From: an uncultured Clostridia bacterium
Lineage (GTDB): Bacteria > Bacillota_A > Clostridia > Oscillospirales > Oscillospiraceae
Direction: 5' to 3'
Length of the DNA: 9,870 nucleotides
NCBI GenBank assembly: GCA_946059285.1
Contig: CAMGMW010000031.1
Coordinates: forward strand, 1 to 9,870
Part shown: one piece after another, positions 1 to 9,810 of the stretch
Layout of the letters: every line of letters starts with the position of its first letter
Numbering within the stretch: position 1 is the stretch's first letter
Position numbers and translations under genes: made by a program
Notes under the pieces: model-generated
Databases searched by the model: none
The model's input: the letters and a program-made list of their open reading frames with translations, nothing else
What the model was told of the DNA's origin: nothing

Positions 1-1140
1 AAGCTCCAATCGATTCAGCGCCTCGTTCAGCGTTTCATCCTTCTTGGCAAAATGAAGACGAATTAAATGGTTTACAGGCTCTCTGAAAAAGCTCGATCCC
101 GGAACAGCACCCACTCCGACATCCCGGGCAAGCGTTTCACAAAACTCCAAATCAGAAGCAAAGCCGAATTCGGAAATATCCAGCAGAACGTAATAGGCTC
201 CCTGGGGAACGGTGTGCGCAATTTTAAGGTCGTCCAAGCCCTTCAGAAACAGATTGCGTTTCGCCGTATATTTTTCCTGTAGCCATTTGTAATAGTTGTC
301 CCCAAATCTTAAACCTGTTACTGCCGCCTCCTGCAGGGGGGCAGCGGCACCCACAGTCAGGAAATCGTGTACCTTTTTTGCGGCGTCAATGATATGCGAC
401 GGAGCGATTATATAACCGAGCCGCCAACCGGTGATGGAGTAGGTCTTGGAAAGCGACGAACAGGAAATTGTCCTTTCCCACATACCCGGCAGAGAAGCAA
501 AATAGATGTGCTTATGCGGCTCGTACACAATATGCTCATACACCTCGTCGGTGATAACAAAGGTGTCGTACTTTTCTGCAAGATCAGCTATCAGTTTTAG
601 CTCATCGTATGTAAACACCTTTCCGCAGGGGTTCGAGGGATTACAGAGGATCAGCGCCTTGGGATGCTGCTTGAATGCCGCCTCCAGTTCGTCTGCATTG
701 AAGCTGAACGCAGGAGGATAAAGCGGTACATAGATCGGTTCTGCACCTGAAAGTATGGCGTCCGCACCGTAATTTTCATAAAACGGCGAGAATACGATTA
801 CTTTATCTCCGGGGTTTGCTACCGTCATCATTGCCGCCATCATTGCCTCGGTGCTGCCACAGGTTACCACAATTTCACCGTTGGGATCAATCTGCCGCCC
901 CATCAGTCTTGACTGCTTTTCCGCCAGAGCCTCTCTGAAATTCTGAGCGCCCCATGTGATGGAATACTGATGAAAATCCTCCTTTGTCACCTCTGCAAGA
1001 CGGTCAAGGATTTCCTTCGGCGGCTCAAAATCCGGGAACCCCTGTGAAAGATTAACCGCACCGTATTGCAGTGATACACGCGTCATACGGCGAATCACCG
1101 AATCGGTAAAGGTTTCGGTTCGCTTGGAAAGCTCCGGCAT
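1..1140 (-). CDS. Fold-type I PLP-dependent aminotransferase (partial, C-terminus cut by window edge)
   Basis: This is an open frame of 380 codons with no stop before the window edge; relatives are about 390 residues, so only about ten C-terminal residues are missing. It is a cytoplasmic class I/II aminotransferase that swaps an amino group between an amino acid and a 2-oxoacid. Visible marks are LSQGFPDF near residue 31, NPSNP at 167-171, the cofactor aspartate in ITDEVYE (D198), the PLP lysine K232 in SLSKTYSITGWRLGY, and a probable carboxylate-binding arginine R361. The SQGFPDF type resembles kynurenine/methionine (YbdL-like) aminotransferases, which act on aromatic amino acids and Met; substrate is not assigned. 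The ATG has an AGGAGG site 7 bases upstream. It lies 15 bp after the CoA ligase, so it is the last visible gene of the operon. Confidence 0.93.
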   Translation of the reverse strand, partial: MPELSKRTETFTDSVIRRMTRVSLQYGAVNLSQGFPDFEPPKEILDRLAEVTKEDFHQYSITWGAQNFREALAEKQSRLMGRQIDPNGEIVVTCGSTEAMMAAMMTVANPGDKVIVFSPFYENYGADAILSGAEPIYVPLYPPAFSFNADELEAAFKQHPKALILCNPSNPCGKVFTYDELKLIADLAEKYDTFVITDEVYEHIVYEPHKHIYFASLPGMWERTISCSSLSKTYSITGWRLGYIIAPSHIIDAAKKVHDFLTVGAAAPLQEAAVTGLRFGDNYYKWLQEKYTAKRNLFLKGLDDLKIAHTVPQGAYYVLLDISEFGFASDLEFCETLARDVGVGAVPGSSFFREPVNHLIRLHFAKKDETLNEALNRLEL

Positions 1141-1155
1141 ATTTCACACCTCCTG

Positions 1156-2496
1156 TTAAATGCTGTAGTCCAGCTTGCGCTCGTCAATAATTCTCTTGGA
1201 TTTGTGCTCAGAACGGGTGTTCAGGTCGCCATCAGGATGCACAATCACATTATAAGGCTTAACACCGATACGTGCCTTGAGCGCCGCTGAAACCTCGGCG
1301 GCAACTGCCTCATCTGTTGCGGGGTTATCGGCATTCTTCTCAATCTCAACGGAATACTTGCAGGTAAAGTCCTTTTCAAATACACGGATCAGATACTCGC
1401 CGGTGATTCCGGAAAGTTCACGAATGACTGCTTCTATATCGCTGGGGAATACGTTGACAGCGGAAACGATGAACATATCGTCCTTGCGGCCGTTGATATG
1501 AATTCTGCCATGTGTTCTGCCGCAGGAGCAGGGCGTGTTGTCGATCCAGCCTATGTCGCCGGTGCGGAAACGGATGAGAGGTCTTGCGTGCTTGCGAAGC
1601 GTTGTAAAGACCAGCTCGCCCACCTGACCGGGTTCAAGAACCTCTCCAGTGTGAATATCCACTGTTTCAACAAGGATATGGTTTTCGGCAATATGTAAGC
1701 CGTCCTTGGCTTCGCACATTGCGGCGCAGGCACCGAAGATGTCAGACAGCCCGTAGAAATCGTAAACCTCGGCACCCCACAGATCCTCAATTGCCTTACG
1801 GGTTGCATCAATGGAACCACCAAGCTCGCCGGCAACGATAATCTTCTTGATGTTCAGATCCTTTTTGGGATCAATACCGCTTTTGAGCGCCTTTTCGCCC
1901 AGCTGCCATGCATATGACGGGCTGGTCCAGATAACGGTGGGCTGATAGGTTTTCAGCACAAACAGCAGCCTTTCGCTTGGCAGCGTGCCGCCCCAGATGC
2001 AGAGCGCCCCCAGATTCTGTGCGCCGATAACATCAGGGCCGCCCACATACAAAGAGAAGTTCAGCGCATGAACATAGCGGTCGTTCGGACGCATACCCAC
2101 CTGCCAGAACCAGCGGCTTTCCGTATCCTGAAATTCGTCAAAGTCTTTCTTCGTAAACGGACTCATGGTCGGCACACCTGTAGAACCTGATGAGGTGGAA
2201 ACAAAGACAACATCTTCCTCCGGAACAGCCGCCAATTCCCCCAGGAAAGAGCCCACGCCCTGTGTGTCTCTCTGGGTTTTCTTATCAATAAACGGGAACT
2301 TCTGTATATCCTTTAAGGTTTTGATGTCCGACGGCTTAACGCCTGCCTCATCAAACGATCTTTTATAATACGGTGCGTGATCGTACGCAAACTGTACGAT
2401 TTCCTTTAAATCCTCCAGCTGGCGCTTTTCCAGCTCCGGTCTTGGAAGAGTCTCCAGTTCCTCGTCCCAATACTTGTTGTTTACATCTCTGCTCAT
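1156..2496 (-). CDS. PaaK-family (phenylacetate-CoA ligase-like) AMP-forming acyl/aryl-CoA ligase
   Basis: A 446-residue adenylate-forming enzyme, the usual PaaK length. It should couple an organic acid to CoA using ATP, releasing AMP and pyrophosphate. The phosphate loop SSGSTGVPT is at 102-110, AGELGG at 222-227, YGLSDIFG at 248-255 and FRTGDIGW at 310-317. The C-terminal lid domain starts at about 335 with NGRKDDMFIVSAVNVFPSDI, typical of the PaaK C-terminal domain. A CSCGRTHGR segment (323-331) resembles the Cys-containing linker common in this family. The start is supported by AGGAGG overlapping the end of the beta-subunit gene, 11 bp away. Next to a 2-oxoacid:ferredoxin oxidoreductase and an aminotransferase, the likely substrate is the acid matching the acyl-CoA of that enzyme. 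Phenylacetate is only the family default. Confidence 0.93.
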   Translation of the reverse strand: MSRDVNNKYWDEELETLPRPELEKRQLEDLKEIVQFAYDHAPYYKRSFDEAGVKPSDIKTLKDIQKFPFIDKKTQRDTQGVGSFLGELAAVPEEDVVFVSTSSGSTGVPTMSPFTKKDFDEFQDTESRWFWQVGMRPNDRYVHALNFSLYVGGPDVIGAQNLGALCIWGGTLPSERLLFVLKTYQPTVIWTSPSYAWQLGEKALKSGIDPKKDLNIKKIIVAGELGGSIDATRKAIEDLWGAEVYDFYGLSDIFGACAAMCEAKDGLHIAENHILVETVDIHTGEVLEPGQVGELVFTTLRKHARPLIRFRTGDIGWIDNTPCSCGRTHGRIHINGRKDDMFIVSAVNVFPSDIEAVIRELSGITGEYLIRVFEKDFTCKYSVEIEKNADNPATDEAVAAEVSAALKARIGVKPYNVIVHPDGDLNTRSEHKSKRIIDERKLDYSI

Positions 2497-2507
2497 GATA
2501 AATCCTC

Positions 2508-3401
2508 CTAATCCATTCTAAAGTTTTTGCTGATTACATCCCACTTTGCATCACGGGAGTGTTTGATTGTTTCTATATCATCCTCAGTCAGATGCCGAAA
2601 TCTGCCCTGCTTTTTGAGATATGCAGCCACATCGGTAAACGCCTTCGGCCGGTGATTTAGCGTAAATTCGCCGTTTTCATATTCTGCAAGATACCAAAGT
2701 CCGCAGTCCACCACCTCTTTGGCGATTGCCACTGTTTCATCCGTGGCAATTCCCCAGCCGGTAGGGCAAGGTGCGATGATGTGAATATACTTGGTTCCCT
2801 TGATTTTCGACGCCTTTTCCACCTTGCGCATAAAATCATTTAAATATCCGACGCTTGCGGTTGCGGCGTAGGGAATGCCGTGTGCGGCTACGATCTCGAA
2901 CATATTCTTCTTGGGCCGAAGATTGCCGCGAATATTCTTTCCCGCCGGTATTGTAGTGGTTTTCGCACCGAAGGGGGTCAGCGAGCTTTTTTGAATGCCC
3001 GTGTTCATATATGCCTCGTTATCGTAGCAGATATACAGGATATCGTCGTTGCGGTCAATTGCGCCCGAAAGTGCCTGTATGCCTATATCCGCCGTACCTC
3101 CGTCTCCTGCAAAGCCCACCGCATGAAAATCCGTGATGCCCTGTGCGCGAAGTCCTGCCTCGACACCGGTCAACATCGACGCGGTGCCTGCAAAGGTGGA
3201 AATTATGGCGTTGTTTCCGAAGCAAAGCTGCGGAAAATTGAAACCGACTGCCGACATACATCCCGCGGGCAAAACGGCAATTGAGCGTTCACCGAGCACC
3301 TTCAGTGCAATTCTTACAGCAAGGCTGCCGCCGCAGCCTGCACACGCCTTGTGCCCGTAGAAGAATTCATCCTCATTCAGCGTTTTTGCATTTACGCTCA
3401 T
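2508..3401 (-). CDS. porB: 2-oxoacid:ferredoxin oxidoreductase, beta subunit (TPP-binding)
   Basis: A 297-residue TPP-binding beta subunit of the four-subunit pyruvate/2-ketoisovalerate-type oxidoreductases. It holds the thiamine diphosphate and the proximal [4Fe-4S] cluster. The TPP motif runs from GDGG (99-102) to DNE (127-129). Probable cluster ligands are C20 and C23 (CAGCGG), C48 (PAGC) and C212 (APCPTGW); C233 in VDCGLW is also conserved in character. Length is normal. The ATG overlaps the alpha stop as AATGA, and its ribosome binding site GGAGGTGA lies inside the alpha gene, so translation is probably coupled. The sequence does not separate pyruvate, branched-chain or aryl 2-oxoacid specificity; the symbol denotes the family. 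Confidence 0.94.
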   Translation of the reverse strand: MSVNAKTLNEDEFFYGHKACAGCGGSLAVRIALKVLGERSIAVLPAGCMSAVGFNFPQLCFGNNAIISTFAGTASMLTGVEAGLRAQGITDFHAVGFAGDGGTADIGIQALSGAIDRNDDILYICYDNEAYMNTGIQKSSLTPFGAKTTTIPAGKNIRGNLRPKKNMFEIVAAHGIPYAATASVGYLNDFMRKVEKASKIKGTKYIHIIAPCPTGWGIATDETVAIAKEVVDCGLWYLAEYENGEFTLNHRPKAFTDVAAYLKKQGRFRHLTEDDIETIKHSRDAKWDVISKNFRMD

Positions 3402-4564
3402 TTGCCGTCACCTCCGATGCCGATAAACTTTACTTCTGCTTTCTCTCTTGCAAGCTCCTCAAAAATGGTCTCGATTTCTTCGGCGGAAATGTTTCTACCG
3501 CCGAGTCCGCCGATGTAATTTGAGGAAGGAACGCTTATATTTGCTTTATGCAATGCGGAGTTGACATTGGTGTATACTGTACCCTCGTTGCCGAAGGAGA
3601 TATCCTTTTCCAACACAGCCACAGCCTTTGCGTTTTTCACTGCGTCGGCGATTTCCTCATTCGGGAAGGGCCGCATGTAGCGGAGCCGAAGCAATCCTAC
3701 CTTCTTGCCCTTGTCACGCAGCTTATCCACAGTTTCTTTCACAAGTCCCGCAATGCTTCCGAGGGTGATGAGTATATAGTCCGCATCCTCGGTGCGGTAG
3801 CGCTCGGTGAGTCCCGTATACCACCTGCCAAAAATGTCGGCGAATTTGTCCTCCGCCTCTGCGATCACCTTTTTTGCATGCAAAAGACCAAGGTGCTCCT
3901 TGAATTTAAACGCCGTGTTGTGGTCTGGCCCTGCGGAAAAGGCAAGATTCCGGGGATTTTCCAGATCCAATTTGTTCTCTGTTTCAAATTTAGGCAGAAA
4001 CGCATCGGCCTGGTCTGCTGTCGGTACATCCACCACCTCGTAGGTGTGAGTCAGCACAAAACCGTCTAAATTTGCTATAAAAGGTGTGGAGACATCCTTG
4101 TGTTCTGCTATGTAGTAGCTCATCAGCGCAAGATCTAATGCTTCCTGTGCATTCTCTGCATAGGCTTGAATCCATCCGCAGTCAAGCTGCGATAGAGAAT
4201 CTCGCTGGTCGCCGTAGATATTCCACGGCAATGCGGTGGAACGGTTCGCATTCATCATGACGATTGGGAATCGTCCGCCCGAAGCATATGTCAGACACTC
4301 GGCCATATACAAAAGCCCCTGCGAGGAGGTGGCGGTAAAAGCCCTTGCACCTACGGCGGACGCTCCCATTGCACAGGACAGCGCTGAATGCTCCGACTCC
4401 ACATGGATAAATTCCGATTTCAGACTACCATCCTCCACCATTTCGGACAGCTTTTCCACCACGATGGTCTGCGGAGTGATGGGATAAGCGGAAATGACCT
4501 GGGGACGGGCAAGGCGGATGCCGTAAGCAAAGGCTTCGTTACCCGATAAAAACTGCTTTGCCAT
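3398..4564 (-). CDS. porA: 2-oxoacid:ferredoxin oxidoreductase, alpha subunit
   Basis: A 388-residue alpha subunit with the pyrimidine-binding domain followed by the transketolase C-terminal-like domain. Family marks are AYPITPQT (26-33, where the Thr helps bind the substrate carboxylate), HVESEHSA (54-61), TSSQGLL (79-85) and the NRSTALPWN stretch, whose R108 matches the substrate-binding arginine of pyruvate:ferredoxin oxidoreductases. With beta it decarboxylates a 2-oxoacid to acyl-CoA and passes electrons to ferredoxin, or runs in reverse as a reductive carboxylase. Start ATG overlaps the delta stop (TAATG) behind GGAGGCGG; its own stop overlaps the beta start. Related gut enzymes act on aromatic and branched 2-oxoacids as well as pyruvate. 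Confidence 0.94.
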   Translation of the reverse strand: MAKQFLSGNEAFAYGIRLARPQVISAYPITPQTIVVEKLSEMVEDGSLKSEFIHVESEHSALSCAMGASAVGARAFTATSSQGLLYMAECLTYASGGRFPIVMMNANRSTALPWNIYGDQRDSLSQLDCGWIQAYAENAQEALDLALMSYYIAEHKDVSTPFIANLDGFVLTHTYEVVDVPTADQADAFLPKFETENKLDLENPRNLAFSAGPDHNTAFKFKEHLGLLHAKKVIAEAEDKFADIFGRWYTGLTERYRTEDADYILITLGSIAGLVKETVDKLRDKGKKVGLLRLRYMRPFPNEEIADAVKNAKAVAVLEKDISFGNEGTVYTNVNSALHKANISVPSSNYIGGLGGRNISAEEIETIFEELAREKAEVKFIGIGGDGK

Positions 4565-4854
4565 TACTTTTCCGCCTCCATTCCGATTGCGCCTGTCTTA
4601 CAGATGTTCTTACATATGCCGCAGCCCTTGCAAAAATCGTAGTCGATTGCGACCTTTCCGCCGTCTTTATAAATCACGCCGTCGGGACAGTAAAGATAGC
4701 ATTGCAGACAGCCTACGCATTTGTTCTTATCAATCACGGGGCGGACATTGCGCCAGCCTGCGTTTTTCGTGACTAAATATCCCGCTTCGTAAGCAGTGGC
4801 GTCGGGAATTTCGGAAAGCGTTTTCGGTATTTTGTCTCTCAAATAGGGTTTCAT
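4564..4854 (-). CDS. porD: 2-oxoacid:ferredoxin oxidoreductase, delta subunit (2[4Fe-4S] ferredoxin type)
   Basis: A 96-residue ferredoxin-like subunit of normal length that carries electrons between the catalytic subunits and free ferredoxin. Two CxxCxxCxxxC clusters are visible: C46, C49, C52, C56 (followed by Pro) and C75, C78, C81, C85. The second lacks the usual proline after its last cysteine (CK instead of CP). The N-terminal 45 residues, including GWRNVRPVID, match the usual delta extension. The ATG overlaps the gamma stop (ATGA), with GAGGGGG as ribosome binding site inside gamma. The gene is intact, although the subunit encoded before it looks shortened. Confidence 0.94.
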   Translation of the reverse strand: MKPYLRDKIPKTLSEIPDATAYEAGYLVTKNAGWRNVRPVIDKNKCVGCLQCYLYCPDGVIYKDGGKVAIDYDFCKGCGICKNICKTGAIGMEAEK

Positions 4855-5234
4855 GGGCGCACCCCCTCAGCAGCCGCCTTCACTGCGGCAATTTTATCCC
4901 CGTCAAGCGTGATAACCCGATCATCGTCAATATGCCGCTTTGTATTCAGTAATACTTTTCCGCCATCTTTCAGCTCCGCAAATGCCGCATCGGTAAACAG
5001 GGTATCATCCAAAAATATGCTGTAGTCGGCTGCCGTGACTTCGCTTCGGTTACCGATCGGTTGATTGTTGAGCTTTGTAAACGCACGGATCGGTGCGCCG
5101 CGCCGCTCAGGGCCGAAGGACGGAAACGCCAGCGCATAGCTGTCATCCCCCTTCAGCGCATAAGCCGCACCAAGCAACCGTGCCGCAGTAAAGGCACCCT
5201 GACCGCCTCGCCCGTGCCATAGTATCTCAGTCAT
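4851..5234 (-). CDS. porG: 2-oxoacid:ferredoxin oxidoreductase, gamma subunit (short form)
   Basis: This is the gamma subunit by WHGRGGQGAFTAARLLG (6-22) and FPSFGPERRGAP (37-48). At 127 residues it is clearly shorter than the roughly 180-190 of typical family members. It stops at AAAEGVRP, where relatives continue with an N-T-x-M-L-G segment and about 55 more residues. The missing part is in no frame, because the delta gene starts at once through an ATGA overlap; a simple frameshift therefore does not explain it. It is either a natural short form or the result of an internal deletion. The start has AAAGGAAGGGG upstream. The 79-bp gap to the permease gene shows no clear terminator or promoter. 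Confidence 0.88.
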   Translation of the reverse strand: MTEILWHGRGGQGAFTAARLLGAAYALKGDDSYALAFPSFGPERRGAPIRAFTKLNNQPIGNRSEVTAADYSIFLDDTLFTDAAFAELKDGGKVLLNTKRHIDDDRVITLDGDKIAAVKAAAEGVRP

Positions 5235-5313: not shown

Positions 5314-6234
5314 TCACTTTTTCCAGCGCAGAAGATAGCGCTGAAGCTTATTGAACAAGAACGATATGGCAACTACCACGATGCCGATGACAAGAATCCC
5401 CACAATCGCTCTTGTATAATCGCCGAAATCGGAATATTGCTTTACATAATAGCCGAGTCCGTCTCTCGCGCCTATCATCTCCGCAGATGTCAGCAAAATG
5501 AAGGAAACGGTAAGCCCCTGATTTAGTCCGATAAAAATCTGCGGTAAAGCTGCAGGAAGAATGACCGAAAACAGCATTGTAAATTTATTGACATTCAATA
5601 CCTTTGCCGAGTCAATCACCTTTTGCTCAACATTCAATACTCCGCTCATGGTACCTGCCAGCACCGGCCAGAAGGTTGCAAGGAAAATGACGAATACCGA
5701 AACCGAACGGAAGGTGGGGAGAAGGGCTATTCCGTAGGGAATATATACAATCGGAGGAATTGCGCTTAAAAACTTTGATATGTAGGTCGCTGCGTTGCCG
5801 ATTCTCGCATTCCACCCCAGGAACAGTCCAAAAGGAATGGCAATGACCGATGCCAAAAGAAAGCCCTGTAATGTGATTCCGAGGGAGCTTTGTATGTTGA
5901 TCAGAATTTTATCCCTGTCCGCTAAAAACTGTGCAAATACTCTGCCTGGAGGGGGAAACAAGGATTCTTTCAGTAAATTGAATTTTGCAGTCGCCAGCGT
6001 CCAAAGAATAAGAAATCCAAATAAAAAACCGATAATGTCCAGAAAGAGGTTTAAGCTCTTCGGGTTCTTCACCAGTGCGGACGCAAGCAGCACAAGCACC
6101 TCCACTCCAACCGCAAACCAGATCACATAGTGGGTCTGAGGGTCCTTGGAAATCTTATCGGGTAAAAATTGCACAGCCATCAACATGATAAACAGCAGAT
6201 TTGTTACCCGTAAAAATCTGTTTCTGAGCGTCAT
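5314..6234 (-). CDS. ABC transporter permease, nitrate/sulfonate/taurine type (SsuC/TauC-like)
   Basis: A 306-residue inner-membrane permease of the BPD_transp_1 family. The core has a helix near 117-140 (SSLGITLQGFLLA), and the cytoplasmic EAA-type loop that contacts the ATPase is near 207-232 (DSAKVLN ... ILPAALPQIFIG), followed by the usual end AEMIGARDGLGY. Relatives are about 250-260 residues. The extra length is N-terminal: about three additional hydrophobic segments near 12-24, 36-55 and 63-82. The start overlaps the end of the ATPase reading frame (TAATG), with GAGGTGG upstream, so it would normally be coupled to the ATPase. Substrate cannot be read from the permease. Confidence 0.92.
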   Translation of the reverse strand: MTLRNRFLRVTNLLFIMLMAVQFLPDKISKDPQTHYVIWFAVGVEVLVLLASALVKNPKSLNLFLDIIGFLFGFLILWTLATAKFNLLKESLFPPPGRVFAQFLADRDKILINIQSSLGITLQGFLLASVIAIPFGLFLGWNARIGNAATYISKFLSAIPPIVYIPYGIALLPTFRSVSVFVIFLATFWPVLAGTMSGVLNVEQKVIDSAKVLNVNKFTMLFSVILPAALPQIFIGLNQGLTVSFILLTSAEMIGARDGLGYYVKQYSDFGDYTRAIVGILVIGIVVVAISFLFNKLQRYLLRWKK

Positions 6235-7046
6235 TACAGCACCACCTCGCTTCCTCCGATTTTACCGGCAATATCACTGTAAAACAGCGACAGCAGCTCA
6301 TTTCTGAATTTGCCGTATTCCGCAGTCTGTACAAGCTCCGCGCGGTTTCTCGGTCGTGCAAACGGGACCGGTATTTCCTTGTACACCCGTCCCGGGTTTG
6401 CCGACATCATCACAATGCGGTCGGAAAGAAGAATCGCCTCGTCAATATCGTGTGTGACGAATACAACGGTTTTCTTTGCCTGCGTTCCGTCGCCCTCCCA
6501 CAGCTTTACCAGTCACTCCTGCAAGACAGTACGGTTTTTGGCATCGATTGCGCCGAAGGGCTCGTCCATCAGCAGGATGTCCGTATCCATTGCCAAAGCG
6601 CGAGCAATCGCTACACGCTGCTGCATTCCGCCGGACAACTGAGAAGGATACTTGTTTTTAAACTCCTCAAGTCCTACCTTGTCGAGAAACGCATCCGCAA
6701 TTTTCAGTCTTTCCGACTGCGGGAGCTTTTTCTTGACCTGTTTTACGCCGAACGCCACATTTTTTCGTGCCGTCATCCACGGGAATAAGGAATAATGCTG
6801 GAAAACAACGCCCCTGTCGGGTCCGGTTCCGCTTATCGGCTTTCCGTCGATGAAAATGCTGCCCTCCGTCGGCGAATGAATACCCTCAAGAATGCTTAAA
6901 AGGGTGCTTTTTCCGCATCCGCTGGAGCCGATCACGCTGACGAATTCCCCCGCCTCTACGGAAAAGGATACATCTTTAAGCGCTGTGAAGCGATTATTCT
7001 TTTCCGTGTAGTCAACCGTTAAATGACGTATTTCAATTTTACTCAA
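6234..7046 (-). pseudogene. ABC transporter ATPase (SsuB/TauB-like) interrupted by an in-frame TGA
   Basis: The frame encodes a complete 270-codon ATPase except for one TGA at codon 178 (6513-6515), where TGG for Trp fits the family pattern LQE-W-L. Before the stop are Walker A GSSGCGKST (40-48), Q83, signature LSGGMQQR (137-144) and Walker B ILLMDEP (157-163). After it the same frame gives the switch histidine H199 (FVTHDIDEA) and a normal C-terminal tail to TAA, overlapping the permease start. The 177-residue product would lack the catalytic histidine. TGA is a true stop elsewhere here (alpha, gamma, permease). The start is taken as TTG at 7046, giving MSKIEIRHLTV, with GGGGTG six bases upstream; an in-frame GTG at 7055 has a poorer site. 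Causes could be a real mutation, a sequencing error or read-through. Confidence 0.87.
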
Positions 7047-7126
7047 ACGTATCACCCCACAGTTTATTGTTTCTTCACCGCAAGGACAGAAGTAAGGTTT
7101 CGCTCTCCTGCTCCGCCTGTTTTCCT

Positions 7127-8227
7127 TTACTCAAACTGATCGAAATGCTCCTTCAGGGATTTATATGCAGGGTCATCGGGATTTTCCGCAAGCAGGCTTT
7201 CCAGCGCCTTCTTGTAGATTTCGGTGTTATAGAGCTTTTCAATATCGTAGTCCTCGGTATAGCCCAGCTCCACAATTGTGTTTTTCAGCGCTACGGTACC
7301 CTGCTTATCCGGGTCGGGCGAAGAAACGCTGTAGCCGCCGTAAACCTCGGTCTTGATATAGTCCTCATCAATATCGATGTATTTTTTCACATCCTGGATC
7401 GTTCCGTCGTGATTCTCCTGAGAAAACTGATATGCTTTAATCAGCGCTCGCTCAAATGCATGGTAGGTATTGGGGTATTGGCTAAGCGCCGCAGTTGTTG
7501 CAACCTGACGGCAGCAGGGCTGATTCTTGAGCGCTTCCTCCTCAGCACAGTAGTAAACTACATTGTAGCCCTGTCCCTTTGCCAGAGAAGCATACGGCGA
7601 ATAAACGGAAGCCGCGTCAATTGTATCGTTTTGCAGGGCGGCATATGCTTCCTTCTGACTATCAAAGTATACAATGTTTACCTTGTCGCTGCCTTCGCCG
7701 ATGGCTATTCCGGCATTTTTGAGCAGGAGCTGCAGCTCTGCGTCCTGCACGCTGTTTTTGACAGAAGCAACATTTCTGCCCTTCAGCACTTCGATTCCGA
7801 GTCCGTCCTTGCCGCCGGTAAATTCGGATTTAATCACATATCCGTGACCGTTGCTCATTGCTCCGCCGAAGATGGTCAGATCGTGTCCCTTGCTTTGGAA
7901 GGTAAGGGCAGGAACCGAGCCGATAAACGCAACATCTAATTTGTTTGCCTCAAGGCCCGAGGAAAGCTCCGCCGCACTGGAGAACTGCGTCAATGTCACA
8001 TTGAGCCCTTCTTCCTTGAAGTATCCTTCTTCTGCGGCGACAAATGCCAGAAGATGCGCCGTAGAATTCAGATAGCCGAGATTGAAATCCGTTTTTTCAA
8101 GCTGGGCTGTTTGCGTTGTGTCAGAGCTGCCATTTCCGCTCTGACTGTTCTGCTCGTTGTTAGAGCATGCTGTAAAGGACAGCAGAAGCGTAAGGGCCAG
8201 AAAGCCCGCAATAATTGATTTTTTCAT
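7127..8227 (-). CDS. ABC transporter substrate-binding lipoprotein (NMT1/SsuA/NrtA-like)
   Basis: A 366-residue lipoprotein. The signal peptide MKKSIIAGFLALTLLLSFTAC ends at C21, the probable lipidation site, followed by a flexible Ser/Gly/Asn/Thr linker to about 42. The mature domain has the periplasmic-binding fold of the NMT1/SsuA class: FNLGYLNSTAHLLAFVAAEEGYFKEEGLNV (48-77, quoted here as its ends only matter: FNLGYL and EEGLNV), LDVAFIGSVPALTF (97-110) and a YSPYASL segment near 209. It carries a vicinal Cys pair, QPCCRQ, at 236-241. It would capture a small organic or sulfonated anion at the cell surface for the permease. The ribosome binding site AAGGTGAA is inside a 35-bp repeat shared with the small lipoprotein gene upstream. 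Class is firm, ligand unknown. Confidence 0.92.
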   Translation of the reverse strand: MKKSIIAGFLALTLLLSFTACSNNEQNSQSGNGSSDTTQTAQLEKTDFNLGYLNSTAHLLAFVAAEEGYFKEEGLNVTLTQFSSAAELSSGLEANKLDVAFIGSVPALTFQSKGHDLTIFGGAMSNGHGYVIKSEFTGGKDGLGIEVLKGRNVASVKNSVQDAELQLLLKNAGIAIGEGSDKVNIVYFDSQKEAYAALQNDTIDAASVYSPYASLAKGQGYNVVYYCAEEEALKNQPCCRQVATTAALSQYPNTYHAFERALIKAYQFSQENHDGTIQDVKKYIDIDEDYIKTEVYGGYSVSSPDPDKQGTVALKNTIVELGYTEDYDIEKLYNTEIYKKALESLLAENPDDPAYKSLKEHFDQFE

Positions 8228-8232
8228 ATTTG

Positions 8233-8267
8233 TTCACCTTGCGATTTATTGCCATCGCATTCCTTTC
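8233..8267. repeat. 35-bp perfect direct repeat, copy next to the binding-protein gene, with inner hairpin
   Basis: Identical over 35 bp to 8557-8591, at an offset of 324 bp. On the minus strand it reads GAAAGGAATG to CGCAAGGTGAA and includes the ribosome binding site of the binding-protein gene. Inside it, TGCGAT and ATCGCA (8240-8259) form a 6-bp inverted repeat around an 8-base loop, directly before the AAGG. The structure could affect ribosome access or be a protein site; neither is shown. Weak similarity continues further upstream as a GAACAA...CAATTT..CG pattern, and on into both signal-peptide coding regions. Confidence 0.9.
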
Positions 8268-8299: not shown

Positions 8300-8551
8300 T
8301 TAACCGCAGCAGTCGGGTACTGCCGAATCGTCTGTGTTTTCAGTTTCAGCTGATTCACCTGAGGAGCTGCTGTCGGCACTGCAACAGTCATTTTTTGCCT
8401 TGCTGTTTTCGTTTTCCGCTATGCTGCTTTCGCAGCAGTCCTTTGTACCGGCGGAAGACCCTGTATCAGCATGACCCTTATTCTCGCCGCATGCGGTAAA
8501 CAGGGTGAGAATAAACAGTGCAAGTAAACCCGCCGTAAATGTCTTTTTCAT
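8300..8551 (-). CDS. Small lipoprotein with three Asp-Cys-Cys motifs, function unknown
   Basis: An 83-residue ORF whose first 21 residues are a lipoprotein signal peptide (MKKTFTAGLLAL...LFTAC) with C21 as the probable lipidated cysteine. The 62-residue tail is low-complexity, rich in Ser, Asp, Glu and Asn, and probably disordered. It has three vicinal pairs, each after Asp: D38-C39-C40, D55-C56-C57 and D80-C81-C82. No known domain is recognised. The pairs suggest thiol chemistry or binding of a soft metal at the cell surface; that is inference. The signal peptide is about 65% identical at base level to that of the downstream binding protein, and both genes share a 35-bp leader. AAGGTGAA serves as ribosome binding site. 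It is the first sizeable gene after the terminator and probably co-transcribed with the importer. Confidence 0.8.
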   Translation of the reverse strand: MKKTFTAGLLALFILTLFTACGENKGHADTGSSAGTKDCCESSIAENENSKAKNDCCSADSSSSGESAETENTDDSAVPDCCG

Positions 8552-8556
8552 TCTGC

Positions 8557-8591
8557 TTCACCTTGCGATTTATTGCCATCGCATTCCTTTC
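8557..8591. repeat. 35-bp perfect direct repeat, copy next to the small lipoprotein gene
   Basis: Exact partner of 8233-8267. It includes the ribosome binding site of the lipoprotein gene and the TGCGAT/ATCGCA inverted repeat at 8564-8583. In this copy an intrinsic terminator lies just upstream (8604-8640); the other copy has no terminator in the matching place. The leader is more conserved between the copies than the coding sequence after it, which suggests either recent exchange or selection on the leader. Confidence 0.9.
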
Positions 8592-8686
8592 CTTTTAATG
8601 GGCAAAAAAAGCGGAAGCCGTTCTTGCTGCCGGGCTTCCGAAAATTGTTGTTCATTCGATTCGTTGTCAAGCGTAATGGGAAGCAT
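8570..8686 (-). CDS. Possible 38-codon ORF coupled to the Cys-rich leader ORF
   Basis: It begins at an ATG that overlaps the leader-ORF stop as TGATG, and reads MLPITLDNESN... to ...KGMRWQ before TAA. The frame runs through both arms of the terminator hairpin and ends inside the 35-bp repeat. If ribosomes restarted here they could unfold the terminator. No family is recognised, the composition is unremarkable, and a 38-codon frame may occur by chance, so this is a weak call. Confidence 0.25.
   Translation of the reverse strand: MLPITLDNESNEQQFSEARQQERLPLFLPIKRKGMRWQ
8604..8640 (-). terminator. Intrinsic (Rho-independent) terminator between leader ORF and lipoprotein gene
   Basis: On the minus strand, CGGAAGCC (8640-8633) and GGCTTCCG (8619-8612) form a perfect 8-bp stem with a 13-base loop, followed by C and seven Ts (8610-8604). 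It stands before, not after, the transporter operon. It would therefore end transcription from the promoter at 8812-8841 unless relieved, and would also stop read-through from the LysR gene. Confidence 0.85.
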
Positions 8687-8781
8687 CACATTCGGGACAC
8701 ACAACATCGCATGATACAGCAATCTTCAGACCGCATCATACACATACACCTATTTGCTTTTTCAATAGTAATTGTTGTCAT
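8686..8781 (-). CDS. 31-codon Cys/Met-rich leader peptide ORF
   Basis: The ATG is preceded by AAAGGAGG eight bases away, one of the best ribosome binding sites in the window. The peptide starts MTTITIEKAN and continues RCMCMMRSEDCCIMRCC to a final VSRM, then TGA. Of the last 20 residues, six are Cys (12, 14, 21, 22, 26, 27) and five are Met. It sits about 24 bases after the predicted transcription start and ends 46 bases before the terminator stem. This suggests a regulatory leader peptide sensing Cys (or Met) tRNA charging. A small metal- or thiol-binding peptide is the alternative. No family is recognised. Confidence 0.6.
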   Translation of the reverse strand: MTTITIEKANRCMCMMRSEDCCIMRCCVSRM

Positions 8782-8811
8782 GGTCCGTACCTCCTTTAAG
8801 CTTACAAGCAT

Positions 8812-8841
8812 ATTATACTACGCAAAAACCTATTTGTCCAA
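8812..8841 (-). promoter_or_regulatory. Sigma-A-type promoter for the leader and transporter operon
   Basis: On the minus strand, -35 TTGGAC (8841-8836) and a consensus -10 TATAAT (8817-8812) are 18 bases apart. Transcription should start near 8805, giving a leader of about 24 bases before the small ORF. The -35 box lies inside the dyad at 8828-8869, as expected for a promoter controlled by the adjacent LysR protein. Confidence 0.75.
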
Positions 8842-8869
8842 TATCCTATAGGTATACTCGGTAATAGGT
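8828..8869. promoter_or_regulatory. Four-half-site dyad, probable LysR-type regulator operator
   Basis: On the minus strand ACCTAT occurs at 8869 and 8853, and the inverted form ATAGG(A/T) at 8849 and 8833, each pair offset by 16 bp. The whole is symmetric about 8848.5: outer arms ACCTATT and AATAGGT, and a central CCTATAGG palindrome. Two direct half-sites facing two inverted ones suit a tetrameric regulator bound on one DNA face. It covers the -35 box and begins just after the LysR stop codon. Binding by that LysR protein is inference. Confidence 0.6.
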
Positions 8870-8874
8870 TCAGT

Positions 8875-9810
8875 CTATAACGATCCTTTTACGGAATCCT
8901 TCAGATAGCGGTCAATTTCCCGGATATACAGCTCGCCCATAGAGCTGAGCAGAATATCTTTTTTCACAATATAGCCTATTTCCATATTACTGCTGACAGA
9001 ATCCCCCTCGTCTTCTAAGGGGACGGCAATATAATCCGTTCCGTTGAGCTCCTCGCAGATAATGCCGGAGCAAAGCGTATATCCGTTCAGCCCGACCATC
9101 AGATTGAGCATGGTGGCCCGGTCATTTGCTTTGATCGTCCTGGGATATTCGGTTGTACTGAATATTTCCTCCGAAAAATAGAACGATCCGTTATCGCCCT
9201 GCTCAAAGGAAAGACAGGGATAATCGGTAAGCTGGTCAAGCCGTATCGATTGCAGCTTGCTCAGCGGATGCCCCTTCCAAAGGTAGACATATGGCTTGCA
9301 ATCAATCAATTTATGGAATACCAGGTTGTTCGTTCTGAGCAGCTTTGTCATGATCTTGCGGTTAAAATCGCTGAGATACAGAATGCCGATTTCACTCTTT
9401 GAGGTGCTTACATCTTCGATAACTTCCCGGGTCTTGGTTTCACGGATCGCAAACTCATATTCCGCTGTGTTGAACTTTTTTACCATCTCCACAAAGCTCT
9501 TGACGGCAAAAGAATAATGCTGGGTCGAAATACCGAATTTCTTTTTCAGGGCTGCGCCCTTTCCGTACTTATCTAAAATGATTTCATACTGCTGATAAAG
9601 CTGTCGGGCATGGTTGATAAATTCCACTCCGTCATTCGTAAGCGAAACGCCTTTTCTTGTCCGGTTAAAAATGATGATGCCAAGTTCCTTTTCTAGCTCC
9701 TGTACAGCACCGGTTAAGGATGGCTGGGCAATATATAACACCTCCGAGGCCTTATTGAACGATCCCATTTCCGTGATGGTTATCACATAATGCAGTTGCT
9801 GTAAAGTCAT
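8875..9810 (-). CDS. LysR-family transcriptional regulator
   Basis: A 311-residue LysR protein of normal length. The N-terminal winged helix-turn-helix covers about residues 1-60, with the typical GSFNKASEVLYIAQPSLTGA (16-35) and VSLTNDGVEF (55-64). A linker helix to about 90 leads to a two-lobed effector-binding domain to about 300. The start has AAGGAG seven bases upstream. It points the same way as the operon rather than away from it, and ends six bases before the ACCTAT dyad. LysR proteins commonly respond to a pathway ligand; here that might be the imported acid or a sulfur metabolite, but the sequence does not say which. Confidence 0.93.
   Translation of the reverse strand: MTLQQLHYVITITEMGSFNKASEVLYIAQPSLTGAVQELEKELGIIIFNRTRKGVSLTNDGVEFINHARQLYQQYEIILDKYGKGAALKKKFGISTQHYSFAVKSFVEMVKKFNTAEYEFAIRETKTREVIEDVSTSKSEIGILYLSDFNRKIMTKLLRTNNLVFHKLIDCKPYVYLWKGHPLSKLQSIRLDQLTDYPCLSFEQGDNGSFYFSEEIFSTTEYPRTIKANDRATMLNLMVGLNGYTLCSGIICEELNGTDYIAVPLEDEGDSVSSNMEIGYIVKKDILLSSMGELYIREIDRYLKDSVKGSL

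Follow-up and report, generated by a model that had tools for sequence, protein, structure and literature searches.

The window analysed here (a 9,870-nucleotide stretch of an uncultured Clostridia bacterium, contig CAMGMW010000031.1) carries on its minus strand a leader that is very probably a Cys-codon ribosome-mediated transcription attenuator, although the response to cysteine itself is a prediction. A promoter, a ribosome binding site (SD), a 31-codon ORF with six Cys codons and an intrinsic terminator follow one another ahead of an ABC transporter and 2-oxoacid:ferredoxin oxidoreductase operon (Table 1), and the short SD-bearing ORF lies between the promoter and the first gene. The original prediction had described a consensus promoter (TGGACA-17-TATAAT, 11 of 12 matches), a ribosome binding site (AAAGGAGG, 8797-8790), an ORF with six Cys and five Met in its last 20 codons, and a perfect 8-bp stem with seven Ts (8640-8612, then C and T7 at 8610-8604), and all of these are present with correct coordinates. 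The leader peptide reads MTTITIEKANRCMCMMRSEDCCIMRCCVSRM.

Table 1. Features of the window discussed in the text.
Feature	Coordinates	Strand	Basis
LysR-type regulator, upstream neighbour	8875..9810	-	HTH_1 and LysR_substrate; homologue in 13 of 15 upstream regions
LysR-type operator-like stretch CCTATTACC..TATACCTATAGGATAT, conserved, immediately 5' of the -35 element	8841..8868	-	similar in 32 of 35 leader loci
Promoter TGGACA-17-TATAAT	8812..8840	-	11 of 12 consensus matches; kept in relatives
SD of the leader ORF, AAAGGAGG	8790..8797	-	sequence; SD-like stretches in relatives too
Leader ORF, 31 codons, six Cys, C-C-x-x-R-M-stop end	8686..8781	-	13 homologous leaders aligned
Cys12-Met13-Cys14 codons, predicted effective stall site	8740..8748	-	masked folding
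Antiterminator 5' arm, within leader codons 16-26	8706..8734	-	24 pairs, RNAalifold, z-score
Antiterminator 3' arm, overlapping the terminator 5' arm	8634..8660	-	pair counts, RNAalifold, z-score
Intrinsic terminator hairpin, 8-bp stem, 13-nt loop	8612..8640	-	hairpin scan, shuffles, covariation
T7 tract of the terminator	8604..8610	-	sequence
Cys-rich lipoprotein, 83 aa, DCC motifs, first gene after the leader	8300..8551	-	similar short DCC lipoproteins in relatives
ABC substrate-binding lipoprotein (SBP), NMT1/SsuA-like	7127..8227	-	Pfam NMT1_2 2.3e-26; SsuA family below cut-off
ABC ATPase, interrupted by in-frame TGA	6513..7055	-	ABC_tran; frame continues past the stop
ABC permease	5314..6234	-	BPD_transp_1
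2-oxoacid:ferredoxin oxidoreductase gamma subunit	4851..5234	-	TIGR02175 above cut-off
2-oxoacid:ferredoxin oxidoreductase delta subunit, two Cys-rich ferredoxin-like motifs	4564..4854	-	named by position and Cys motifs
2-oxoacid:ferredoxin oxidoreductase alpha subunit	3398..4564	-	POR_N, PFOR_II
2-oxoacid:ferredoxin oxidoreductase beta subunit	2508..3401	-	named by position and sequence
Phenylacetate-CoA-ligase-like (PaaK) enzyme	1156..2496	-	below PaaK cut-offs
Aminotransferase, class I/II, runs off the window	1..1140	-	best solved relative E. coli YbdL, 1u08

Judged from the window alone, the case for a Cys-rich SD-led ORF is only fair, and the ORF is mildly unusual: of 200 dinucleotide-shuffled versions of the window, 5 contain a 15-50-codon ORF that has an SD and at least six Cys. 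We hold the leader to be real because the comparison across genomes, rather than the window, settles the matter. Scanning with the SBP gave 165 loci, of which the best 80 were taken; these are mostly from Ruminococcus or Oscillospiraceae/Clostridia, with a few from Treponema, Spirochaetaceae and Alistipes. A leader profile identified a homologous leader in 13 of these best 80 loci, 12 scoring above 30 bits and L004 scoring 20. In genome searches with the profile, matches at E up to 0.01 numbered 24 of 64 for one genus and 13 of 150 for a second; two more genera gave 1 of 6 and 1 of 17 genomes. Two family samples gave matches in at least 3 of 300 and at least 6 of 395 genomes; these rates are lower bounds, with fewer candidates scored per genome (22 for G001 in the small sample, 6 in the large one), and four extra matches in the sample of 395 are weak (18.0-19.8 bits). 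Without those four, the leader is carried by 43 genomes in addition to that of the window, with a drifted copy in G003 and a partial one in G448; where named they are mostly Ruminococcus-like. G016 (17.3 bits) proved to be a chance match on inspection of its frame, and was dropped from all leader counts.

The same operon mostly stands behind the leader. Among 35 leader contexts, the SBP starts within about 1.05 kb downstream in 29, and oxidoreductase genes follow in 25; G003 has the SBP too, and the sequences of G358 and G325 end too early for the SBP to be called. In G004 the aminotransferase comes directly after the permease, and in G007 the leader precedes a membrane protein that is 74% identical to one resembling TIGR04002 (below cut-off). 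The original prediction of a cysteine-responsive attenuator for an import and 2-oxoacid operon is upheld as far as the conserved leader, terminator and antiterminator, the named operon behind them and, in relatives, the sulfur amino-acid genes nearby are concerned, but not for several operons of the same genes: no recognisable leader was found in the 250-900 nt searched at L006, L011, L016, L017, L018, L025 and L029. Three further loci have a short Cys ORF before the SBP operon, namely L003 (..ERCREQRM-stop, with SD), L005 (..KRCWERMCKSTTR) and L051 (MNTFNFRKNIMINMMCMCLMGMCCFDALFDKKF, then a terminator-like hairpin), and these are possibly diverged leaders. A wider nutrient-acquisition regulon is suggested by G014 (L093 / L159; the genome to which R. 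bromii YE282 locus L051 belongs), where a 789-aa peptidase of the M28 type lies behind the same leader and operator.

Conservation within the ORF is centred on particular Cys codons. Among 44 leaders tallied (G003 and the partial L192 being excluded), the residue is Cys at -18, -10, -6 and -5 from the stop in 41, 40, 42 and 43 leaders, respectively. The alignment of relatives that had been proposed as a check supports the original prediction, with these Cys codons kept in 40-43 of 44 leaders and the terminator in 35 of 35. A set of 26 leaders, referred to as group A, excludes the window, G001-G005, G014 and the second copies G007b and G360b; the sets of 29 (recoding) and 28 (alignment A3) take G005, G007b and G360b back in, and alignment A3 is without G321, whose leader is identical to that of G013. 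In all 26 group-A leaders position -10 is Cys, encoded by TGT in 17 and TGC in 9; the codon of Cys -5 is mixed in the same proportion (TGT/TGC, 17/9), and Cys -6 is always TGC. Their stop codon is TGA in 25 cases and TAA in one.

The terminator stem of the window, CGGAAGCC/GGCTTCCG, is perfect over 8 bp and is followed by C and then T7. A general terminator scan missed it, as the loop limit of that scan is 8 and the loop here has 13 nt. A hairpin with a T-rich tail is found in all 35 leaders, two of them with one mismatch, starting 20-52 nt past the stop; when these stretches were shuffled, 12 of 350 shuffles came up to the weakest leader score and 2 to the median. In 28 group-A-like leaders, 5 of the 9 stem pairs show two-sided changes, which none of 500 shuffles attains. 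By eye, 6 of 11 further leaders have an unrelated GCCGGC hairpin at the terminator site, so that the terminator function stays while its sequence does not. The calculated P(terminator) without a ribosome is mixed, ranging from 0.00 to 0.99 over the 35 leaders, with at most 7 innermost pairs used.

Two mutually exclusive pairings were also part of the original prediction; they do exist, with compensatory changes, but the dominant one is longer than had been described. In the window group (the window, G001, G014, G002 and L004; five sequences), leader codons 16-26 form a helix with a 27-base stretch running into the terminator 5' arm, at -34.0 kcal/mol in the window before the terminator 3' arm is made. 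Over 24 pairs and five sequences, 90.8% of the cells are paired, compared with 30-55% in slid controls. Seven pairs have two-sided changes (reached by 11 of 500 shuffles), 11 cells have them (0 of 500), and there are 18 further pair types (72 of 500). RNAalifold recovers the helix unprompted, and the z-scores are -3.79 for the window (0 of 200 shuffles), -5.05 for G014, -3.68 for G002, -2.91 for L004 and, weakest, -1.81 for G001 (10 of 200).

Group A forms a different and shorter helix, in which CUUUCC-GAA-UGUGA at the end of the ORF pairs with UCACA-CGGGAAG at the terminator. Here 91.3% of 335 cells are paired, compared with 31-56% when slid. Covariation of this helix is not beyond chance, with one two-sided pair that 187 of 500 shuffles match; two-sided changes are nearly lacking because the leader arm is nearly invariant. 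Covariation of the alternative stems bears out the window-group antiterminator and the group-A terminator, but not the group-A antiterminator. Compared with synonymous recodings, the antiterminator pairing is more extensive (mean 11.7 versus 7.2 paired, n = 29): in 17 of these leaders it is equalled by no more than 7 of 150 recodings, and the other 12 fail at about the 5% level. On the short stretch from -15 the same test was negative for the window group, with 28 (window), 37 (G001), 92 (G014) and 114 (G002) of 150 recodings pairing as well; the window-group antiterminator starts upstream of that stretch.

The bases of the group-A Cys-Cys pair at -6/-5 pair with the terminator arm and loop. 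Positions -16, -15 and -14, and -12 in the next codon, are paired in 26, 28, 28 and 28 of 28 leaders; pairing is weaker at -17 and -18 (22 and 18 of 28), and the free third base of codon -5 is unpaired. In this modelled structure, the CC pair may have been kept through RNA pairing, not through stalling. A pairing of GCUUCC directly past the stop is feasible with codons -6 and -5 in the A-site, before the 3' arm is made; G014 has no GCUUCC behind its stop.

To relate these structures to the position of a ribosome, we used masked folding, in which the leading edge of the ribosome was assumed to lie 12 nt beyond the start of the A-site codon. In the window, before the 3' arm is made, the terminator 5' arm is paired to the leader over 5.9 of 8 nt with Cys12 (-20) in the A-site, 3.9 nt with Cys14 (-18), 1.0 at -17 and 0 at -16. 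The effective stall codons are thus predicted to be Cys12 and, less well, Cys14, i.e. the C-M-C pair. The stall had been placed at codons 21-22 or 26-27 by the original prediction, which is too late, since in masked folding a ribosome there has already opened the antiterminator. G001 and G014 behave in the same register as the window; in G002, where the Cys codons are displaced upstream by one codon, the drop in pairing shifts equally. The drifted L004/G003 do not follow the register. For group A, the leaders with P(terminator) below 0.5 number 14 of 26 when Cys -10 occupies the A-site and 0 of 26 when the ribosome has moved on by one codon; the corresponding counts are 12 of 26 at -18, 9 of 26 at -20 and 43 of 1040 for shuffled RNA.

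Once the full terminator is present, equilibrium folding favours it over the stall-dependent pairing in G001, G014 and G002 and, with Cys -10 in the A-site, in 12 of the 26 members of group A. It also prevails in the window at Cys14, where 6.3 nt lie in the terminator and 1.1 nt pair with the leader; at Cys12 the values are 2.7 and 3.8. Since equilibrium folding with the 3' arm favours the terminator in many leaders, the model requires the antiterminator to form first, during transcription. Folding with a ribosome-covered segment, another check that had been proposed, supports the model in part: with the 12-nt edge and, in the window group, before the 3' arm, the exclusive antiterminator is kept at Cys12/Cys14 and exists only while the ribosome waits, but at equilibrium this does not hold in all leaders. 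According to this modelling, at least two different antiterminators would each start about one ribosome edge past a conserved Cys codon. We regard this as the strongest argument for codon stalling, and it constitutes a natural test of the attenuation model.

Translation of the leader, the stall, the cysteine signal and the direction of the response would then be connected as follows. RNA polymerase would start at the promoter with a ribosome trailing on the leader ORF. When charged tRNA-Cys is scarce, the ribosome would wait at Cys12 or Cys14, and codons 16-26 would pair with the stretch past the stop, including the terminator 5' arm, to give one long hairpin; the terminator could then not form and the operon would be transcribed. 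With plentiful cysteine, the ribosome would proceed, open the base of the hairpin and release the 5' arm, so that the terminator would halt transcription.

The C-terminal F, V, A, R and M residues are kept about as well as the Cys residues, and RNA pairing accounts for only part of this. Such an end would suit a TnaC-type arrest peptide, whose ..CCxxRM-stop would pause the ribosome at the stop codon with a bound sulfur metabolite and thereby hold the terminator on or off: R at -2 and M at -1 (each in 43 of 44 leaders), V at -9 and F at -11 (each in 38) are kept beyond what sensing of cysteine needs, the codons TTC CGA ATG at the end of the ORF are invariant in 26 of 26 group-A leaders, and the CGA ATG core is common to a second leader type described below. 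We nevertheless consider arrest at the stop unlikely. The invariant group-A bases TGC TGy GCT TTC CGA ATG TGA largely fit the pairing with the terminator arm, the window group retains CCxxRM and not the rest, and the register between the antiterminator start and the Cys codon follows from codon stalling, not from stop-codon arrest.

It is less probable still that the attenuator reads methionine, or methionine and cysteine together. Met alternates with Cys in the C-M-C-M-M stretch of the window and occurs at -19 in 33 of 44 leaders, and the closest solved relative of the operon aminotransferase is YbdL, which we take to be a methionine aminotransferase; however, Met is replaced by Ile, Thr, Lys or Arg where Cys stays, and is found at -17 in just 21 of 44 leaders. 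That the leader is no regulator and instead a working small peptide, or a selenoprotein with TGA read as Sec, is scarcely conceivable, even though it is Cys-rich and in the window TGC comes directly after the TGA. The stop is TAA in G252 and in the drifted L004, and the Sec reading was rejected; the sequence directly past the stop varies freely in length and letters, a terminator-like hairpin starts there at most 52 nt away in 35 of 35 leaders, and the RNA pairs are retained through residue changes such as S-E-D-C-C to P-K-D-G-G in G014. Other candidates were set aside by searches: for a T-box or SAM riboswitch, no Rfam match was obtained in the window at E up to 1, and in relatives (60 SBP loci and 14 upstream regions) only tRNAs reached the Rfam gathering score; the leader region gave no match to a plasmid origin.

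The Cys-codon attenuator would thus govern an operon whose genes can be named to different degrees. The gamma subunit of the oxidoreductase has 127 aa in the window and mostly 170-197 aa in relatives; orthologues of the delta and beta subunits in relatives are 63-92% and 84-92% identical, respectively. The SBP has no PDB match at 1e-5. A TGA lies within the ABC ATPase frame (6513-6530), and the ATPases of relatives have about 270 aa in one frame. The Sec-assisted organometallic (SAO) transporter SaoX/SaoA/SaoP was rejected as an identity, since the scores remain below the NCBIfam cut-offs (49.5 versus 300, 190.5 versus 360 and 91.4 versus 295 bits, with the ATPase sequence ended at its TGA). 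A 75-nt direct repeat (83%; 8193-8267 and 8517-8591) covers the start, the ribosome binding site and a small hairpin of the SBP and lipoprotein genes, and the 83-aa lipoprotein may have arisen by duplication of the N-terminal part of the SBP; loci of the R. flavefaciens type have a DCC-rich stretch inside the SBP N-terminus itself.

Upstream of the leader, the position immediately 5' of the -35 element and the adjoining LysR gene make the conserved stretch of Table 1 a putative LysR-type operator; the comparison covers the 32 of 35 leader loci in which the -35 pattern matched. In the promoter alignment (L127-L160), CCTATTACC..CCTATAGGATATT(A/G)GACA is kept 5' of -35 in leader loci. Further upstream, 15 regions were searched for homologues of the genes of G009, whose order is cysK, SAM methyltransferase, metK, luxS, a cystathionine gamma-lyase/synthase-like gene, a CysK/CBS-like gene, LysR, amidohydrolase and leader; the cystathionine gamma-lyase/synthase-like and second CysK/CBS-like proteins, both PLP enzymes, score below the equivalog cut-offs. 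The cystathionine-gamma-type gene and the second CysK/CBS-like gene are each found in 12 of the 15 regions, and this transsulfuration-type pair in 12; the SAM methyltransferase occurs in 11, luxS in 10 (three of those at 39-42% identity), the amidohydrolase in 10, cysK (at least 75% identity) in 9 and metK in 5. Within the upstream DNA covered, the sulfur gene cluster is absent from G002, G014 and G320. Judged from their sequences, the neighbouring genes of the G009 type could together convert methionine to cysteine. With less confidence, we infer a role of the operon in supplying sulfur amino acids from its location in relatives, where it adjoins transsulfuration-type genes, luxS and often cysK.

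What the operon imports can be approached from its enzymes. A PaaK-like ligase, a ferredoxin-dependent oxidoreductase and an aminotransferase together would, by their sequence assignments, turn an acid into an amino acid, and rumen bacteria convert phenylacetate, an acid, to an amino acid by such a route. From the neighbourhood genes, the likeness to YbdL and this acid-to-amino-acid enzyme set, we tentatively put forward a salvage route that has not been described, and which we regard as possible but rather doubtful. An imported thio-acid, e.g. 3-methylthiopropionate, would be activated by the PaaK-like enzyme, reductively carboxylated in a ferredoxin-dependent step to the 2-oxo acid and aminated to methionine, and the neighbours (SAM methyltransferase, luxS, mccA-/mccB-like genes and, in some genomes, metK) would lead on to cysteine, the end product that the leader would sense. 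Among the papers searched, none joined methylthiopropionate, reductive carboxylation and methionine. If this route is true, the codons of the leader would have named the pathway. In our view, sulfur amino-acid cross-feeding in the gut is poorly mapped; through the leader, an orphan ABC/2-oxoacid oxidoreductase operon would be linked to sulfur nutrition, with a candidate substrate that can be tested.

Enterobacterial attenuators of the trp/his/leu type combine a leader ORF with regulatory codons, mutually exclusive antiterminator and terminator structures, and a register set by the stall codon. The present leader is alike in its ORF codons, its exclusive structures and its stall/antiterminator register, whereas it differs in having Cys codons, in occurring in Clostridia and in its long antiterminator inside the ORF; no protector hairpin was identified. 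Leader-peptide attenuation has long been reported from Proteobacteria and Actinobacteria, with T-boxes instead in Firmicutes. A Cys-codon attenuator in rumen and gut Clostridia would be a type of switch that is seldom reported in this branch. PMC1262725 states that Firmicutes tRNA-synthetase genes show no leader-peptide attenuation, and PMC2965389 (2010) presents his leader peptides of hisS/hisZ in bacilli as 'regular' attenuation in Firmicutes and a noticeable finding. Those leaders share leader-peptide attenuation in Firmicutes with ours and differ in amino acid and order.

Among systems with Cys codons, the uORFC-8-2 motif before cysS in Rhodobacterales is a predicted ribosome-mediated attenuator (PMC8632094). 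Compared by description, it shares tandem Cys codons and an intrinsic terminator with our leader, while its phylum and gene differ and its Cys codons sit inside the first stem; with other genes downstream and loci mostly from Ruminococcus or Clostridia, our leader does not belong to that motif. Poly-Cys short ORFs act in mycobacteria (Canestrari 2020, as cited in PMC9031893 and PMC9094748), and Actinobacteria have leaders with Cys codons before sulfur operons, one of which precedes a cbs gene (PMC1262725). Cys codons before sulfur operons are thus common to both, but the mycobacterial and actinobacterial leaders are described as leaderless or without an evident terminator (PMC1262725, PMC9031893), in contrast to the SD and intrinsic terminator found here, which place our leader outside that class. 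The metL leader before metNIQ in S. lividans, MSTTSDRTPATEATTTPGARCMCRRMCAF, has no typical intrinsic terminator according to PMC8079986. Its CMC and MCAF look like our leader and methionine import lies behind it, and the likeness is likely convergent. PMC13188914 was a further comparator source. Among the Cys-leader papers listed, mainly at the level of titles and the beginnings of abstracts, no case was found for this operon, for this group or for Ruminococcus.

A second leader type precedes the SBP in R. flavefaciens-type loci that lack the Cys leader, where a similar promoter is followed by a short ORF with R-M-R-C, usually S-E-R-M-R-C with the codons CGA ATG CGA TGT. This RMRC leader is present in 30 of the best 80 of 165 SBP loci, and 18 more were recognised by eye with the last Cys changed or an early stop. 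The core pattern gives 20 sites in 14 of 19 genomes (0 in the reversed control), and 18 of the 20 lie 10-67 nt before a 383-417-aa SBP-type lipoprotein ORF. There is no comparable terminator, with 0 of 30 RMRC leaders reaching the weakest class-1 score. Because the second Cys is not kept, we claim no cysteine mechanism for this type. A possible sequestering of the SD was also considered, with mixed results: among 21 sequences, the SBP SD pairs strongly with the leader in some and not at all in others (the start of L052 was wrongly picked). The R-M-R stretch is of the basic-X-basic form, like the Arg-Leu-Arg of macrolide-arrest leaders noted in PMC8632094.

Some further observations concern these loci. 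In L014, L021, L023, L045, L066 and others, the SBP is preceded by a SERMRC or SERM-stop leader that lacks a terminator and contains a CGA ATG YGA core. In R. flavefaciens-type loci (L013, L014, L033, L050, L065 and others), a TIGR00027 SAM methyltransferase is found about 3.0-3.3 kb past the SBP start, and the same family also occurs in the luxS-transsulfuration cluster of the leader genomes. At many RMRC loci, CCTATAGG is located between -35 and -10, and not upstream of -35.
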